DNA of 37,143 nucleotides from an uncultured Flavobacteriales bacterium (GTDB taxonomy: Bacteria > Bacteroidota > Bacteroidia > Flavobacteriales_D > Sanyastnellaceae). The notes below the pieces were generated by a model. The model searched no databases. It was given only the letters and a program-made list of their open reading frames with translations, and was not told the DNA's origin. Both the position numbers and the translations under genes were made by a program. Below, in pieces: positions 6,605 through 13,978 of the stretch (its first letter is position 1; each line of letters starts with the position of its first letter). The stretch lies in the NCBI GenBank assembly GCA_937881575.1, contig CALGEI010000112.1:1-37143 (forward strand), written 5' to 3'.

Positions 6605-7729
6605 CTAAAAGGGTGATTTGTACTGTGGGTTTTCAGCAAGAGTGGGGTCCGTGAGGCACTTCAGGAAGGCCGCCAAATCCATGCGGTCTTGTTCGTCGAG
6701 GAGGAGTCCCGTCTCTTGCGTGGCGGCCAATGCCGGATCGACCGTTGCGGACAATTGAATGCCTTCATTGTAGTGATCAACGACCTCTTCCAGCGTGGCG
6801 AAACGACCGTCATGCATGTAGGGTGGCGTGAGTTCGATGTTGCGAAGGCTGGTTACCTTGAATCTGGCGCGATCCTGGGGACTCCCGGTAACCACCATGA
6901 ACCCACTGTCTTGCATGGCGGCATCGCTATCCAATCCGTTGTTCATGAAATCATCGTTTTCGAAGTTGATTCCGGAATGGCAATGCGCACAATCCGCACC
7001 GCTGAATTCAGGAAAAAAGGGATTGTACTCCATGAAGAACAAATCCAACCCTCTAAGTTCACTTTCATTCAGTATGGACTCTCCGGCGAGGTGTTGGTCG
7101 TATCGGCTGCCGTAAGAAACGATGCTGAGCATAAATTGCTCTAGGGTCAAACTGATTCGCTCCGGCGTGATGTTCCCATCTCCGAATGCTCGGGTGAATT
7201 GGTCCACATATTCAGATTCTACCGATAGCTTGGCAATGACATCGTCCAAGTTTTCATCCATTTCCAGCTCATCTTCGATGGGAAGCAAGGATTGGTGTCT
7301 CAGCAACTCAGCCCGGCCATCCTAAAAGAATCGATTGGAGTTCCAGGCCATGTTCGACACGGCCATGGCCTGTCGATGTCCAGGCAGGCCTTGAATGCCA
7401 ATTGAAAACCGAGCGGTATCGCTAAAGCCAGCGCTTTGAAGGTGGCAAGTTGCGCAGCTCATGGTTTCATCACCACTCAATGCGGTTTCGTGAAACAACA
7501 TGCGTCCAAGTTCAACTTTAGCCTGAGTCAAAGGATTGTCTGCCGGCAGAATGGGGGGTGTCACATGTGCTGGGAATACCAGTTGATACGGTGTTGAATC
7601 CGCTGTGATTTCGGGTTCATCCGGAGTGCGGTTGCATGAAGCGATGGTCCCTGCAAGCAGCACAGCCATCAGGATCCACTTGGGGTGGGGTGATCCGGTA
7701 TTCCAATTGAAAGAGCGTGAACCATTCAT
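6605..7729 (-). pseudogene. MbnH-like di-heme cytochrome c peroxidase interrupted by one amber codon
   Basis: Two abutting frames in the same phase encode one complete di-heme peroxidase of the CcpA/MauG/MbnH superfamily, about 374 residues. It has a lipoprotein-like N-terminus (IASC, Cys32), a first heme site CATCH (Cys92-His96), a second heme site CAHCH (about 247-251), and TPPYMHDGRFATLEEVVDHYN near the end. Codon 136 (7322-7324) is TAG in the context NRFF-stop-DGRA. The family motif is FFWDGRA, so a single G-to-A change turned the conserved Trp codon TGG into TAG. No frameshift or other damage is visible. Either the gene was recently inactivated, the base is a sequencing error, or the stop is read through. 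It lies 93 bp downstream of the MbnP-like gene, the usual partner. Confidence 0.85.
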
Positions 7730-7822: not shown

Positions 7823-8788
7823 TTATTGAATGATGAGACGCCTGGCGACTCTTTCAATCGGACTTTGGATGAAATAAATACCAGGCGCCCATCCTTGAAC
7901 ATCCAATACGTCCATAGGGCTCTGGATATTGGCTGAATGAACAACGCGTCCCTGCGTATCCGTGATGTCAAAAGTGGACCCCATGACGTCGTTGGACCAA
8001 ATCAATTGCATCCAATCCGATGAAGGGTTGGGATAAGCACGGCACCATTCAGGCGCTTCCAGTAGATCGCTCAGTCCGACAGCACTTGTGCCCGGAGCAA
8101 ACACTTCGTCTCGCATGTTCTCCAAAACGGTGACGGCCTCGTTCGTGGTTGAGTGCTCGATCAAGCCATTGGCGACATTGAGCTGAATGAACAAGTTTTC
8201 GTAGTTGGCGTGCAGGGAGATGGTCACGTTGCCATCCACCGCTGAAGCAGCGAGTTCATGAGATTGATTGAAGAAATTGTTGTCTCCGAGTGCGTGTACT
8301 TCGAATACGGCATTGAGATTGGACCCGGCCAATCCTTCCAATGCCACGAAACGGTAGCCACTTGCCCAGCCCCAGTGCATGCTTGGATATTGGGGCGCCA
8401 ATGGATGGCCTGAAGCATATGTCGCAGGGTCGAGGTGGTTGTGCTCTTCGTCCACACCCACGCTAAAATCAATGGCCTCCACATTGTTGATGTCCCAATC
8501 GCCCAAAGAATACATCGGCTCGTCATCGTCTACGTTGACCAAGATATAGGTATCAGTGAGTTCCGTAGTTTGACCTCCATCGTGTGTGATGACGAAATCG
8601 CTGAGATAGTATTCCAGCCGGTCAATTGCGAGGTTCGTTCCGAAAATGGAATGGTTGGTTTCCAACTCCAATGCTTCACCGTTGATCAGATGCTGCAGTT
8701 GCAATTGAAGGGTGTTTTGAGCTTGGGCTCCAAGGGTAAAAACGAATGTGAGCAGGGATGCAACGAAAGCCAAAGAGATTGATTTCAT
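7823..8788 (-). CDS. MbnP-like metal-binding protein with T9SS sorting domain
   Basis: This 321-residue protein has a signal peptide (...GAQAQ) and a body resembling the copper-binding MbnP family: RLEYYLSDFVIT (about 57-68), the acidic GVDEEHNHLDPATY segment (111-124) and SMHWGWASGYRFVALEG (136-152), followed by beta strands. From about residue 250 it has a T9SS type A sorting domain (AYPNPSSDWMQL, a GR turn and an IYFIQS strand), so it is predicted to reach the cell surface. In characterised systems MbnP is modified by its partner MbnH, which oxidises a Trp to kynurenine to create a copper site. The HWGW cluster (Trp139, Trp141) is a candidate target. The MbnH-like gene follows immediately but carries an amber codon. 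Confidence 0.8.
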   Translation of the reverse strand: MKSISLAFVASLLTFVFTLGAQAQNTLQLQLQHLINGEALELETNHSIFGTNLAIDRLEYYLSDFVITHDGGQTTELTDTYILVNVDDDEPMYSLGDWDINNVEAIDFSVGVDEEHNHLDPATYASGHPLAPQYPSMHWGWASGYRFVALEGLAGSNLNAVFEVHALGDNNFFNQSHELAASAVDGNVTISLHANYENLFIQLNVANGLIEHSTTNEAVTVLENMRDEVFAPGTSAVGLSDLLEAPEWCRAYPNPSSDWMQLIWSNDVMGSTFDITDTQGRVVHSANIQSPMDVLDVQGWAPGIYFIQSPIERVARRLIIQ

Positions 8789-9597: not shown

Positions 9598-11349
9598 GTG
9601 ATGATTCAACGAAGTATGTTTTGTCGGTTTTCGTCCAAGGAAATGATTGCGACGGACGCCTGTGAGGTCACCTTGGTGTCCAAGAAAAAAATGCCCTTGA
9701 GACATTGGATTCCGGGGCAGTTTTTGACGCTAATTCTGGAATTACCTGAAGGCACAGTTCATCGGAATTACACCATTGTGGCAATGGAGGCCCGGAAAAT
9801 TGTATTGGCCGTTCGCCGGGCACCGGGAGGGCGTGTTTCGAATTGGCTAATTGACGACGCCAAAATCGGAGAGGAAATCAAAATCATCTCACCCTTAGGC
9901 CAGTTTGGACTGCCCATCCATCCTCAGGGACCCATTTGTTTCATTGCAGGAGGAAGTGGCATTACGCCATTCATCCCGATGATTCGCCATCGGAAAGCTC
10001 CGCATTTGGAGCATCCATTCTTGCTGATAACGGCCAATTGGACGACGGAAAGCACCATGTACCGTGAAGACTTGGAAGCGTTTCATGCGGATGGCGCGGT
10101 GCGCTGGATGAGCATGCTGACGGCCCCGAATTTGGATTCGGCGGCGGCGAACCGGAACCAAATCATAGGACAGAGTGATGCCAAGGGGTTGGCGTTGGCG
10201 CTGGAGCGACTGGACTGCGCGCTGGACTCGGTTCACTCCAATCCGGAATTTCCAGCACACTTTTATATCTGCGGACCCGCGAAAATGATGCAAGCACATC
10301 GTTCGCTGCTGATGGAGCATGGTGTTTCCAGTGATCGCATTGTTTTGGAAAGTTTCTCCACGGAAAATTTCGCTGTATCCGATTCGAGCCAGGCGATTGA
10401 CATCGTTGTATCGAAGGATGGGCAAGAGGAAAAGGTGGCCGTAAATCCAGGCGAATCTGTTCTGGAGGCCTGTTTGAACCACGGACTATCCATTCCGAAT
10501 AGCTGCCGAATGGGAGCCTGCGGGACATGCCACATGACGTTGGACCATGGGGAGCTGCGGTTGGGTAATCAGGCTGGATTGACCGAATCAATACAAAGGC
10601 AGAGGAAGGTGTTGGCATGCCAGTCATTTCTTCATGATGACGTCAAGCTTGCGCCGGCGCTATCGCACAGTCGAGCGAATGGTCGCCGCAATGCCTTTCT
10701 TGTCGCTGCCGGACTTGCCTTGTTTGTTTTCGCAGGAGCGAAAATTCCAGCAAGCTCCCAATTCATGATGGTTGGGCCTAAAAACACGGGCCATGAGGGA
10801 ATCGAATGTCGCCAATGCCATGTCGATGCGCCGGGTTCCTTTCGACAGCAGGTGAGTCACAACGCCAGAGGAGTCATGGGGTTTCATGATTTGGATTGGG
10901 TGGATGTTGGAACTGCGGAGGTCACCAATGAAACGTGCGAAACATGCCATGCCCGTCCCAACGATCGGCATCCGGTCCAACGTTTTCAGGAATTGCGATT
11001 TTTTGATCAACGAGAAGCCCTGGGGGTGCATGAATGCAAAAGCTGTCACATGGAGCACAACGGAGTGCGGGTAACTCTCGAGGGAGGAGACTTTTGCCAA
11101 TCATGCCATGCCGACCTGGTGATGGACCAAGATCCCTTGGATTTTTCTCATGCCGAGATCATCGCAGAAGGGTCCTGGGATGCCTGCATGCAATGCCATG
11201 ATTTCCATGGCAATCACAAGGCGCAGGCCCCAACATCGATTCAGGATACCATTGGGCTGCATCAAATCCGAAAATATCTCAACGGGGGGGAGGACCCCTA
11301 CGGACTGCAAAAAGAACATTTAGCCCGCAATCCACTTTTAGAAGAATAA
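9598..11349 (+). CDS. FAD/NAD(P) reductase - [2Fe-2S] ferredoxin - TM - pentaheme cytochrome c fusion
   Basis: A 583-residue fusion. Residues 1-258 form a ferredoxin-NADP reductase module: PGQF (39-42), RNYT (56-59, FAD), GGSGITP (118-124, pyridine nucleotide) and CGPA (225-228). Residues 265-350 form a plant-type ferredoxin with Cys303, 308, 311 and 341. A helix at about 365-383 follows a basic RANGRR stretch, placing the N-terminus in the cytoplasm. Beyond it are five CXXCH heme sites (Cys404, 447, 480, 500 and 530), so the C-terminus should be periplasmic. As read, one chain could carry electrons from NAD(P)H through FAD and [2Fe-2S] across the membrane to c-type hemes. It is the first gene of a four-gene unit; the next starts 18 bp on. 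The acceptor is unknown. ATG at 9601 is an alternative start. Confidence 0.88.
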   Translation: MMIQRSMFCRFSSKEMIATDACEVTLVSKKKMPLRHWIPGQFLTLILELPEGTVHRNYTIVAMEARKIVLAVRRAPGGRVSNWLIDDAKIGEEIKIISPLGQFGLPIHPQGPICFIAGGSGITPFIPMIRHRKAPHLEHPFLLITANWTTESTMYREDLEAFHADGAVRWMSMLTAPNLDSAAANRNQIIGQSDAKGLALALERLDCALDSVHSNPEFPAHFYICGPAKMMQAHRSLLMEHGVSSDRIVLESFSTENFAVSDSSQAIDIVVSKDGQEEKVAVNPGESVLEACLNHGLSIPNSCRMGACGTCHMTLDHGELRLGNQAGLTESIQRQRKVLACQSFLHDDVKLAPALSHSRANGRRNAFLVAAGLALFVFAGAKIPASSQFMMVGPKNTGHEGIECRQCHVDAPGSFRQQVSHNARGVMGFHDLDWVDVGTAEVTNETCETCHARPNDRHPVQRFQELRFFDQREALGVHECKSCHMEHNGVRVTLEGGDFCQSCHADLVMDQDPLDFSHAEIIAEGSWDACMQCHDFHGNHKAQAPTSIQDTIGLHQIRKYLNGGEDPYGLQKEHLARNPLLEE

Positions 11350-11367
11350 ACTCAGCTCAACGCATGC

Positions 11368-12645
11368 ATGTCGCAACTACGCAAACACTTATTGGTTGTT
11401 TTTTCATTGGGATTGCTTGTCTTCTCGATGCCGGTTTTGGCACAAAAAGCGTCCAATTCATCCAGTTTTTCACTTGATGCTCAGGTGCGTCCACGCACAG
11501 AAATGAGAGGGGGATACCGCACGCCATTGCTTGAAGGGCAGCATGCTGCAGTCTTGACGGATCAGCGGACTCGATTGGGTGTGCGTTATGCTGACACTGG
11601 GTTTGAGCTCAGGGTCAATTTTCAGGATGTGCGCGTTTGGGGAGCTTCGCCCACCATGACAACAGGTGGAATGGAACCCAGCTCGGGCCAGGTCAATCTC
11701 GGGTTAGTGGAAGCCTGGGCAAGCGTCAATTTGGGTCAATCTTGGAAACTCACAGCCGGTCGTCAAATCATATCATTGGACAATGAACGGTATTTTGGTA
11801 CGGTAGGATGGGCACAGACAGGGCGGGTTCATGATGCGCTGATGTTGAGAAAGTCCGATGATTCTAGTCCTTGGAAGTGGACGCTTGGAGGGTCGTATGG
11901 TCAGCAACAAGCGGTCTTGATCGATCAGCCTTTTGCACTTCCGGGAGCCTACAAGGCGCTGGCTTTGGCGCATGGGGCTTATGAACCTCAAGATGGTGTT
12001 TCGCGGATTTCGGGTTTGTTGACGTCCGTGCAGCGAACGGCCAGTCCGCATCGCTTTGAGCACACGGCTGGTTTGACCTACTCCAAGAAGGCCCCATGGA
12101 GTTTGGTGCTTGAAGGCTATGTCCAATCGGCGGGAGCGGGAGCGGGGACGGGCTATTTGTTGGCGGGATCGCTTTCAACCAAGACGGGCCGCCACCAGTG
12201 GACCATTGGCACCGATTGGTTGTCAGGAGATCAAGAGAATACGGTGGCATTTTCACCTTCATTCGGAACGAACCACAGGTATTATGGGTTGATGGATTAC
12301 TTCTACGCAGGCAGTGGCCATGGTTCAGTTGGACTGATGGACCACTTTGTGAAGTGGGCTTCTACGTTTGGTGATGGCAACACGGCCAAGCATTCCTTGA
12401 CAGCACATTATTTTGTCAAGGGCGATGCATCCGAAATGTTGGGGTGGGAATTGGATTGGGCCTTGTCCAAGCCGCTTCATCCAGGAGTCACCTTTTCTTG
12501 TGGAGCGTCCGTTCTAGACGGTACAGGCGACCTCTTGGAGCTGAAAGGCTGGACGGAAGATCTCGTGGCAGAAGGAACAGGCATCCAGTCTTGGGGATGG
12601 ATTATGCTCAGTGTTAACCCCACCTTATTCTCTCAATCGAAATGA
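11368..12645 (+). CDS. Outer-membrane beta-barrel protein, alginate-export/porin-like
   Basis: A 425-residue protein with a signal peptide (...MPVLAQ) and a chain of alternating polar/apolar strands typical of outer-membrane barrels. The N-terminal third resembles the alginate-export porin family: QVRPRTEMRGGY, QRTRLGVRY, NFQDVRVWG, WKLTAGRQIISLDNERYFG and WAQTGRVHDAL. In other bacteria members of this family pass varied solutes, so alginate is not implied. It sits inside the redox operon, 18 bp after the fusion gene and overlapping the next gene by 4 bp (ATGA). It could admit an electron acceptor or donor to the periplasm, or act as the barrel of a trans-outer-membrane electron conduit. The latter would be new for this family and is only inference. 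Confidence 0.8.
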   Translation: MSQLRKHLLVVFSLGLLVFSMPVLAQKASNSSSFSLDAQVRPRTEMRGGYRTPLLEGQHAAVLTDQRTRLGVRYADTGFELRVNFQDVRVWGASPTMTTGGMEPSSGQVNLGLVEAWASVNLGQSWKLTAGRQIISLDNERYFGTVGWAQTGRVHDALMLRKSDDSSPWKWTLGGSYGQQQAVLIDQPFALPGAYKALALAHGAYEPQDGVSRISGLLTSVQRTASPHRFEHTAGLTYSKKAPWSLVLEGYVQSAGAGAGTGYLLAGSLSTKTGRHQWTIGTDWLSGDQENTVAFSPSFGTNHRYYGLMDYFYAGSGHGSVGLMDHFVKWASTFGDGNTAKHSLTAHYFVKGDASEMLGWELDWALSKPLHPGVTFSCGASVLDGTGDLLELKGWTEDLVAEGTGIQSWGWIMLSVNPTLFSQSK

Positions 12646-13472
12646 AATTGACTTCAGCATTTTGGTTGGTCCTTGCAGGCGTTTTTGTCACGGCCAATGT
12701 TTATTTGTTCTCCACGGCTCCTGAACCACTGATCAAGAAAAATGAGGCCAAAGTCACTTTTTCGATTGAAGAGGCCTTGACGGCGCTTTCGTTTGAGAAC
12801 GACATCACCCGCACTGTGTATACGCGAGAAATTGTCGGGGGTGGGAAGAAAAACGGGTTGAAATTTAGTGAGAAATGGGCGGATGAAGATGTTCACGCTG
12901 GGCCGCTTCCCGCGCTTTTCCTGCGCGGTATAGCAGGCAGCCTTTCGCGATCGAGCGTGCCGTTGGATTTGTATCTCGGTTCGGATTACCCCATTGAAAG
13001 CAGCAATTTGTTTGAAGGCATTCAGGCTGAGAAATTTGCTGAAATCAGGGCCGATGGCGAGCCCAAGTTTTTCTATGATGACCGGACGTCCGCTTACACG
13101 GCGATGTTCCCAGACATCGCCACAGCCATGCCCTGCGTGAGTTGCCATAACACCCATGAACAATCAGCAAAGAAGGATTGGGTGCTCAACGATATCATGG
13201 GGGCCACGACCTGGAGCTTTCCTTCCGATTCCATAACGACGGATGAATGGGTTGAAATGCTCTCAGCGTATCGCGCTGGCGTAGCTGAGACGTATGGAGT
13301 GTATTTGGCCAAGGCGGGTGCGTTCCCAGAAGAATTGCGGCCTGTGATCGGTGGGGGTTGGCCGAAAAGTCAAGCCCAGTTGCCTTCCCCTGAGATGTTG
13401 CGGGATACGATTGATCAGTTGACCTCTCAAAAGCTGATGGAATTCCTCGTCGCTCATGCTGTAGAATCATGA
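12642..13472 (+). CDS. DUF3365 / Tll0287-like membrane-anchored mono-heme c protein
   Basis: A 276-residue protein whose N-terminus is one uncleaved-looking hydrophobic anchor (4-24). The periplasmic part carries the DUF3365 signature: GLKFSEKWADEDVHAGPLPA (72-91), DYPIESSNLFEG, YTAMFPDIATAMPCVSCHN (one CXXCH, Cys165-His169), then DWVLNDIMGATTWSF. DUF3365 (Tll0287-type) proteins bind one c-type heme in a PAS-like fold and are proposed redox sensors or electron carriers. The start overlaps the stop of the barrel gene (ATGA) and its own stop overlaps the next start (ATGA), so translation is probably coupled. Within the operon it could accept electrons from the pentaheme domain or sense the acceptor. 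Confidence 0.83.
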   Translation: MKLTSAFWLVLAGVFVTANVYLFSTAPEPLIKKNEAKVTFSIEEALTALSFENDITRTVYTREIVGGGKKNGLKFSEKWADEDVHAGPLPALFLRGIAGSLSRSSVPLDLYLGSDYPIESSNLFEGIQAEKFAEIRADGEPKFFYDDRTSAYTAMFPDIATAMPCVSCHNTHEQSAKKDWVLNDIMGATTWSFPSDSITTDEWVEMLSAYRAGVAETYGVYLAKAGAFPEELRPVIGGGWPKSQAQLPSPEMLRDTIDQLTSQKLMEFLVAHAVES

Positions 13473-13978
13473 GGTACAGCATCAACCTGTTGACGCTCGT
13501 CGTGAGCGTCGTGGTGGGTGCTTTGGTTCTCCTCAAGGCAGGAAATTGGTCGATGTTTGAGTTTCTGGAAGTCTGGAAACAAGCAGAGAATTATCAAATC
13601 GGCACGGGGCTCGGCTTGCTTTTTGTGGTGATCGCGCAATGGTCTCTCACCGCTGCCAAAGGCGTGTTTAATTTGTCGGGCGCTGCATGGGATCGCATGT
13701 TGCTCTTGCACTACATGCTGGGTTTGGTTAGCCCCATTTTGGCTTTCATGCACAGTGCGAAATTGGGCTACGGTTTATTGGGTGCGCTCATCGCGCTATT
13801 CCTCTTGAACGCCATGTTTGGAAGTGCAATGGGCCTCGCAAATGAAGCAGGTACATCGAGCAGGCGATTTGCAATCAAGTGGTCTGTCGTCCAAATGGTG
13901 CCGATTCACATTGCACTTTCCAGCCTCGTTGCTGCGATGCTATTGGTCCACATTTGGAATGTGATCTATTTCAATTGA
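13469..13978 (+). CDS. Small membrane protein with two HX13H pairs (probable di-heme b)
   Basis: A 169-residue protein with about five hydrophobic segments (5-22, 45-64, 78-95, 100-122, 143-168). Two helices carry paired His residues with identical spacing: His81/His95 and His147/His161. Two HX13H pairs on separate helices are the arrangement used by ferric-reductase/NOX-type and related membrane cytochromes to hold two b hemes, one near each membrane face. I see no FAD or NAD domain, but the first operon gene supplies those functions. It is the last gene of the redox operon, with its start in an ATGA overlap. A role as quinone-linked or transmembrane electron carrier is inference. No specific named family is recognised. 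Confidence 0.72.
   Translation: MRYSINLLTLVVSVVVGALVLLKAGNWSMFEFLEVWKQAENYQIGTGLGLLFVVIAQWSLTAAKGVFNLSGAAWDRMLLLHYMLGLVSPILAFMHSAKLGYGLLGALIALFLLNAMFGSAMGLANEAGTSSRRFAIKWSVVQMVPIHIALSSLVAAMLLVHIWNVIYFN

Follow-up and report, generated by a model that had tools for sequence, protein, structure and literature searches.

A conserved gene module of Bacteroidota predicted to carry electrons from NAD(P)H to a periplasmic heme-Cache protein

Gene content and organization of the operon

The window analysed here, a stretch of 37,143 nucleotides (contig CALGEI010000112.1 of assembly GCA_937881575.1) from the genome of an uncultured Flavobacteriales bacterium, contains four tightly spaced forward-strand genes, P1 to P4. 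Open reading frame coordinates place P1 and P2 18 bp apart and give 4-bp overlaps for P2/P3 and P3/P4, as described in an initial annotation made from the sequence alone. Pfam scans and motif searches agree with the contents that this annotation assigned to the genes: a fusion of reductase, ferredoxin, transmembrane (TM) stretch and five CXXCH motifs, a beta-barrel, a DUF3365 monoheme protein, and a protein with two HX13H pairs. The annotation knew of no named system that combines these genes, and the open-licence papers searched contain no description of one, although it may have been published elsewhere. The features are as follows.

9601..11349, forward strand: P1, fusion of NAD(P)H reductase, [2Fe-2S] ferredoxin, TM anchor and pentaheme c domain, 582 amino acids (Pfam, CXXCH positions, hydropathy)
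9625..10302, forward strand: FAD- and NAD(P)-binding domains of P1, cytoplasmic (FAD_binding_6, residues 10-103; NAD_binding_1, residues 115-235)
10414..10629, forward strand: [2Fe-2S] domain of P1 (Fer2; cysteines 302, 307, 310 and 340)
10693..10749, forward strand: single TM anchor of P1, residues 365-383 (hydropathy)
10807..11199, forward strand: pentaheme c domain of P1 (CXXCH at 10807, 10936, 11035, 11095 and 11185)
11368..12645, forward strand: P2, outer-membrane beta-barrel resembling Alginate_exp, an optional companion (PF13372)
12642..13472, forward strand: P3, membrane-anchored heme-Cache (Tll0287/DUF3365) monoheme c protein (PF11845, AlphaFold2 model, fold match)
13134..13148, forward strand: CXXCH heme site of P3, residues 165-169, invariant in 39 sequences
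13469..13978, forward strand: P4, five-helix diheme b membrane protein (invariant histidines, AlphaFold2 model, structure comparison)

The start of P1 is placed at the ATG at 9601, a GTG at 9598 also being possible.

Properties of the encoded proteins

P1 scores above the Pfam cut-offs for FAD_binding_6 (37.7 bits), NAD_binding_1 (39.8 bits) and Fer2 (60.2 bits); the GGSGI-P motif of its reductase part is kept in relatives, and the four cluster cysteines are invariant in eight sequences. The five heme motifs, at residues 403, 446, 479, 499 and 529, all lie on the C-terminal side of the TM stretch, and a sixth CXXCH, at residue 307, was rejected as a heme site because it belongs to the cluster motif of the ferredoxin. 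The five CXXCH motifs are invariant in 37 heme domains together with six further histidines, enough to give each of the five hemes two histidine ligands; an all-bis-His electron transfer domain thus fits the conserved residues, and for the same reason an NrfA-like nitrite reductase activity of the pentaheme domain itself is not favoured. The heme count and the histidines also fit an NrfB-type pentaheme donor, which packs five bis-His c hemes into about 190 residues, and for which the match to PF22678 is weak (E 0.007) and PDB matches to nitrite reductases are partial.

P3 contains one CXXCH and scores 26.2 bits against a cut-off of 24.1 for PF11845 (formerly DUF3365, now Tll0287-like), a family described as a Cache domain carrying a c heme (PMC12889525, a 2026 preprint). 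Its AlphaFold2 model (predicted local distance difference test, pLDDT, 90) finds Tll0287 (5b82) as its best structural match, with Z 8.9 over 140 residues, and its profile has no sequence match in the PDB. It is the most conserved subunit, with a mean pairwise identity of 58%, compared with 53% for the heme domain, 43% for P4 and 40% for the reductase. In 77 of 80 homologues there is no cysteine beyond residue 45 outside the CXXCH, so the axial cysteine ligand of the Tll0287 type is missing and the heme site may be open to ligand.

P4 has five TM-like helices, with H81 and H95 in the third (TM3, residues 71-95) and H147 and H161 in the fifth (TM5, residues 133-168). All four histidines, which form the two HX13H pairs, are invariant in 52 sequences and are proposed to be heme ligands. 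The best membrane-protein match of the AlphaFold2 model (pLDDT 92) is superoxide oxidase (5oc0, Z 11.4), and other four-helix cytochromes b also match (HyaC, FdnI, b6f, bc1 and b561). Five-helix bundles of talin head the VIA list for P4 and were set aside as sharing a helical-bundle arrangement. Because Z values for helical bundles can be generic, the histidine pattern carries the weight in identifying P4. Conserved HX12-14H pairs in TM3 and TM5 are characteristic of the ferric reductase domain (FRD) superfamily (PMC11031084, PMC5676040), and P4 possesses such pairs; members of that superfamily have six TM helices rather than five, and none is present among the 50 best structure matches listed for P4. 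Two results speak against P4 as a diheme b electron carrier: the model has no Foldseek match below 0.001, and PF01794 scores below its cut-off of 28, both in the window (11.0 bits) and in the homologue at locus L061 (18.5 bits). Nor does the P4 profile have a sequence match in the PDB. Given the five helices and the score below the cut-off, P4 is taken to work like an FRD protein and is not filed as a member of the superfamily.

Conservation of the module, and its fused and split forms

Relatives were sought with P3 motifs only, in a collection that represents 84,980 bacterial and archaeal species by a single genome each, which yielded 213; a scan with short motifs may let diverged relatives in other phyla escape. 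The same collection scanned with a single P1 heme domain gave no match, whereas alignment with P3 succeeded. Counts of loci refer to the best 80 of the 213, all of them Bacteroidota by their titles, except for two that are titled only "bacterium"; the alignments for structure prediction exclude L013, which comes from a plasmid collection. P4 is found at all 80 loci, the pentaheme domain at 79 and the reductase at 78, the two exceptions being L073, where the contig ends, and L050. Since the loci were fetched by P3 alone, this co-occurrence is not built into the sample. In a separate set of 100 genomes, made up of the window genome and relatives, nine match the heme domain, among them the window genome and one (G013) that retains a remnant only; the other seven, which are intact, always have P1, P3 and P4 together, and the barrel adjoins them in six. 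The initial annotation had named failure of the homologues to co-occur as grounds for abandoning it, and they do co-occur. The four genes belong to a conserved, unnamed bacterial module; the invariance of the P4 histidines and of the five CXXCH motifs, and the persistence of the gene cluster at about 80 loci, take the pattern beyond chance. At L050 (9301-11302, Sporocytophaga) the pentaheme protein, P3 and P4 are encoded without a reductase in the locus DNA, and another donor may feed P4 there.

The fused form of P1, which the window also has, occurs at 24 loci; a separate reductase and cytochrome occur at 55 as first counted, or 53 without L026 and L045, which are probably broken fused genes. 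The split form, the commoner in this sample, makes up one clade (support 0.997) with the fused form around it, the midpoint root being uncertain; thus, the fusion stressed by the initial annotation is not the defining feature of the module. None of the 53 split reductases has a TM stretch, and 52 of the 53 split cytochromes have one. With a reductase lacking any TM stretch and a cytochrome that has an anchor only, the TM helix of P1 is best understood as an anchor, and electrons would have to cross the inner membrane by way of P4. In this respect the initial annotation, which took the fusion protein to be the membrane-crossing element, was not borne out.

Predicted path of electrons

P1, P4 and P3 are thus predicted to make up a wire that conducts electrons from NAD(P)H across the membrane. 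On the cytoplasmic side, electrons would pass from NAD(P)H to FAD and on to the [2Fe-2S] cluster of P1; from there they would cross the inner membrane over the two b hemes of P4, and in the periplasm they would continue through the five bis-His c hemes of P1 to the one c heme of P3; P1's TM helix would only hold the reductase and heme ends next to P4. Cofactor motifs, domain order, topology signals and co-conservation make such a wire highly probable, and lend support to the initial proposal that electrons from cytoplasmic NAD(P)H reach periplasmic hemes. Also counted in its support are a gene for a heme lyase of the CcmF/NrfE type, located between the reductase and pentaheme genes at L083 (10804-13335), and a gene in the same setting at L051 (12345-14924), the product of which is similar in size and start to that heme lyase. 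That the wire ends at P3, whatever the acceptor may be, is a somewhat less secure but still probable reading. P3 has the highest conservation, the Tll0287 fold and no axial cysteine, and the fused loci have no conserved terminal enzyme; all of this makes P3 the likeliest binding site of the final acceptor.

The barrel most probably serves as a pore in the outer membrane for a small substrate, which may be anionic, and not as a part of the wire. P2 (about 400 residues, a single copy in the window genome) scores 17.2 bits for Alginate_exp (PF13372), below the cut-off of 25.2, which its homologue at L061 exceeds with 33.0 bits. In genomes G001 and G013 the barrel is kept at the same place (L102, 5223-6569, and L021, 6812-8122, respectively) and P1, P3 and P4 have been lost. 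The remnants have different break points, comprising the 60 C-terminal residues of P1 and one end of P4 in G013, and possibly the start of P3 in G001, and so probably reflect two independent losses. A dedicated conduit should not outlast the wire, which is why the barrel is interpreted as a pore with other uses as well.

Gene neighbourhoods

Names of the neighbouring gene products NrtA, NrtB, NrtCD, NasA, NapA, globin, Crp/Fnr and heme lyase are based on family scans of representatives, and the names NarK, NirBD, SUMT, NrfA and others were read by eye from the sequence. The 55 loci first counted as split are rich in genes of nitrogen oxide metabolism: globin (47 loci), NrtA-like proteins (39), Crp/Fnr regulators (38), ATPases (36), permeases (35), NarK (17), NirB (14) and NasA (9), with NapA and NrfHA at some. 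Altogether, a globin or nitrate/nitrite gene (NrtABCD, NirBD and NasA/NapA among them) is found near 50 of the 55. On a Flammeovirga plasmid (L013, 6597-8344), hemA and a globin gene are directly upstream of the module, and HemA recurs at eight split loci. The loci of four same-genus relatives (L014, L019, L020 and L021) have a frame for a SulP-type transporter, named by eye, near the module, probably through shared synteny.

In the window, the reverse strand next to the operon encodes an MbnP family protein that carries a Por secretion tail (7823-8788), adjoining a frame for a CCP_MauG-type diheme peroxidase (6605-7729); together they constitute an MbnPH-like pair divergent from the operon. 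The peroxidase frame is broken by one in-frame TAG at about 7319-7321, and both of its parts match PF03150, a state compatible with a pseudogene, a recent mutation or a sequencing error.

Nature of the final acceptor

The setting of the split form suggests that the module may dispose of a nitrogen oxide. This neighbourhood had been missed by the initial annotation, as had the family of P3, the signalling members of which bind nitric oxide (NO) (PMC12889525). The nitrogen oxide reading rests on both: heme-Cache proteins fused to signalling domains bind NO tightly (PMC12889525). Also in its favour, a globin and a ferredoxin reductase form an operon under NsrR in Legionella (PMC3820574). A nitrogen oxide, most likely NO, as the acceptor, with the module reducing or detoxifying it, is a tentative possibility that is less likely than not. 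More speculative still is the idea that P3 represents a new class of periplasmic nitrogen oxide (NO) reductase or scavenger, a heme-Cache protein turned enzyme and fed by NAD(P)H without quinone, which might be the main NO defence of globin-less Flavobacteriales with small genomes.

Several observations count against a nitrogen oxide as the acceptor. Within the locus DNA examined, none of the 24 fused loci has nitrate or globin genes nearby. The window genome, 99% complete, has no NasA/NapA, NrfA, globin or NosZ (the search did not extend to NorB or other NO reductases), and NirK matches there only far below the cut-off. A stand-alone heme-Cache protein with an axial cysteine shows weak NO binding and is regarded as redox-type (PMC12889525). 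The negative results for the fused loci and the window genome indicate that the core module is independent of nitrate reduction, and any nitrogen oxide reaching it in the window organism would have to come from outside. A general function as electron donor to nitrate reductase was rejected for the window lineage, as NasA/NapA was not found in its genome.

It is unlikely that the wire is instead a hub feeding separate periplasmic enzymes such as NapA or MauG-type peroxidases, with P3 as carrier only. NapA-type genes do adjoin some split loci (L068), and the MbnP gene and the interrupted CCP_MauG gene adjoin the window operon; however, the loci share no conserved partner enzyme, the search for NapA in the window genome gave no match, the MauG frame is interrupted, and P3 is more conserved than the subunits that act as carriers. 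Less likely again is an extracellular conduit, in which electrons would move through or along the barrel and reach Fe(III), humics or a similar acceptor outside. The multiheme c domain and a lipobox-like cysteine in P3 at 20 of 53 split loci would suit such a conduit, as would the presence of the barrel in or beside the operon at 14 of the 24 fused loci and elsewhere in genome G059, where none is beside the module. The barrel is absent beside the other 10, however, and is placed downstream, after NrtABCD, at many split loci; it survives alone in G001 and G013, and the operon encodes no outer-membrane multiheme protein. The initial suggestion that the barrel is a step toward an outer-membrane acceptor is accordingly hard to maintain, the barrel being no part of the core.

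Oxygen or peroxide chemistry, with the module acting like a NOX or handling superoxide, is highly improbable: the match of P4 to the E. coli superoxide oxidase, the FRD-plus-FNR plan of NOX enzymes and the formation of superoxide from O2 by heme-Cache proteins (PMC12889525) are in its favour, but such Z values are common for helical bundles, O2 needs no pentaheme relay, and oxidative-stress neighbours are not consistent (KatG-like and OxyR-like frames, named by eye, are beside L029 only). Equally remote is a sensor of redox state or NO, with the wire only setting the redox state of P3, for which the Cache fold, the sensing of NO by signalling members of the family (PMC12889525) and histidine kinase and response regulator genes near some split loci might argue, but P3 has no signalling domain, no kinase is among the conserved neighbours of fused loci, and an entire NAD(P)H reductase plus seven more hemes would be a high price for a sensor.

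Comparison with known systems

The module is spread over many marine and other Bacteroidota, and no name or tested function was found for it. If the predicted wire is correct, it would deliver electrons from NAD(P)H to the periplasm without quinone and give stand-alone heme-Cache proteins a concrete role, and the nitrate/globin setting in marine flavobacteria would bear on their handling of nitrate and NO. Like CymA/NapC and the MtrCAB conduits, the module would move electrons outward through multiheme c proteins, but those systems have a quinol donor, whereas here the donor is NAD(P)H, the hemes number five and the barrel is small and optional. The four proteins have no Pfam matches to NapC/NirT, decaheme MtrA/MtrC or MtrB, only weak matches to MtrC/F-like and c3-like multiheme proteins. 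P1 shares the order FAD-NAD-[2Fe-2S] with PaaE-type class IA reductases, its best NCBIfam match (140 bits), but its score is far below the PaaE cut-off of 420.8, and it adds a TM stretch and a pentaheme c domain; in NqrF-type reductases the order is [2Fe-2S]-FAD-NAD. P3 has in common with Tll0287/DUF3365 proteins (sCache_heme, PF11845) the fold, the CXXCH and a score above the cut-off, but it differs from Tll0287 in lacking the axial cysteine, in having about 75 more C-terminal residues, and in being tied to a fixed redox operon.

The prokaryotic NADPH oxidases and the FRD superfamily (SpNOX, STEAP) likewise combine HX12-14H pairs in TM3 and TM5 with an FAD/NAD(P)H reductase. NOX enzymes of the SpNOX type fuse FRD and FNR in one chain, whereas the FRD-like P4 and the reductase are encoded by separate genes; the module also differs from SpNOX and STEAP in adding c-type hemes and in the PF01794 score of its P4. 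In Fre/MsrQ-MsrP, as is predicted here, NAD(P)H electrons flow by way of a cytosolic FNR-family reductase and a diheme b membrane protein to a periplasmic acceptor protein. No MsrP-type molybdoenzyme is encoded in the operon or among its conserved neighbours (a genome-wide search was not made), the acceptor would be a heme-Cache protein, P4 has five TM helices rather than six, and a [2Fe-2S] cluster and a pentaheme c domain are fused or added. Thus, the module appears to combine three known pieces, a reductase of the FNR-plus-ferredoxin kind, an FRD-like diheme b protein, and c hemes ending in a heme-Cache domain, in one conserved arrangement.

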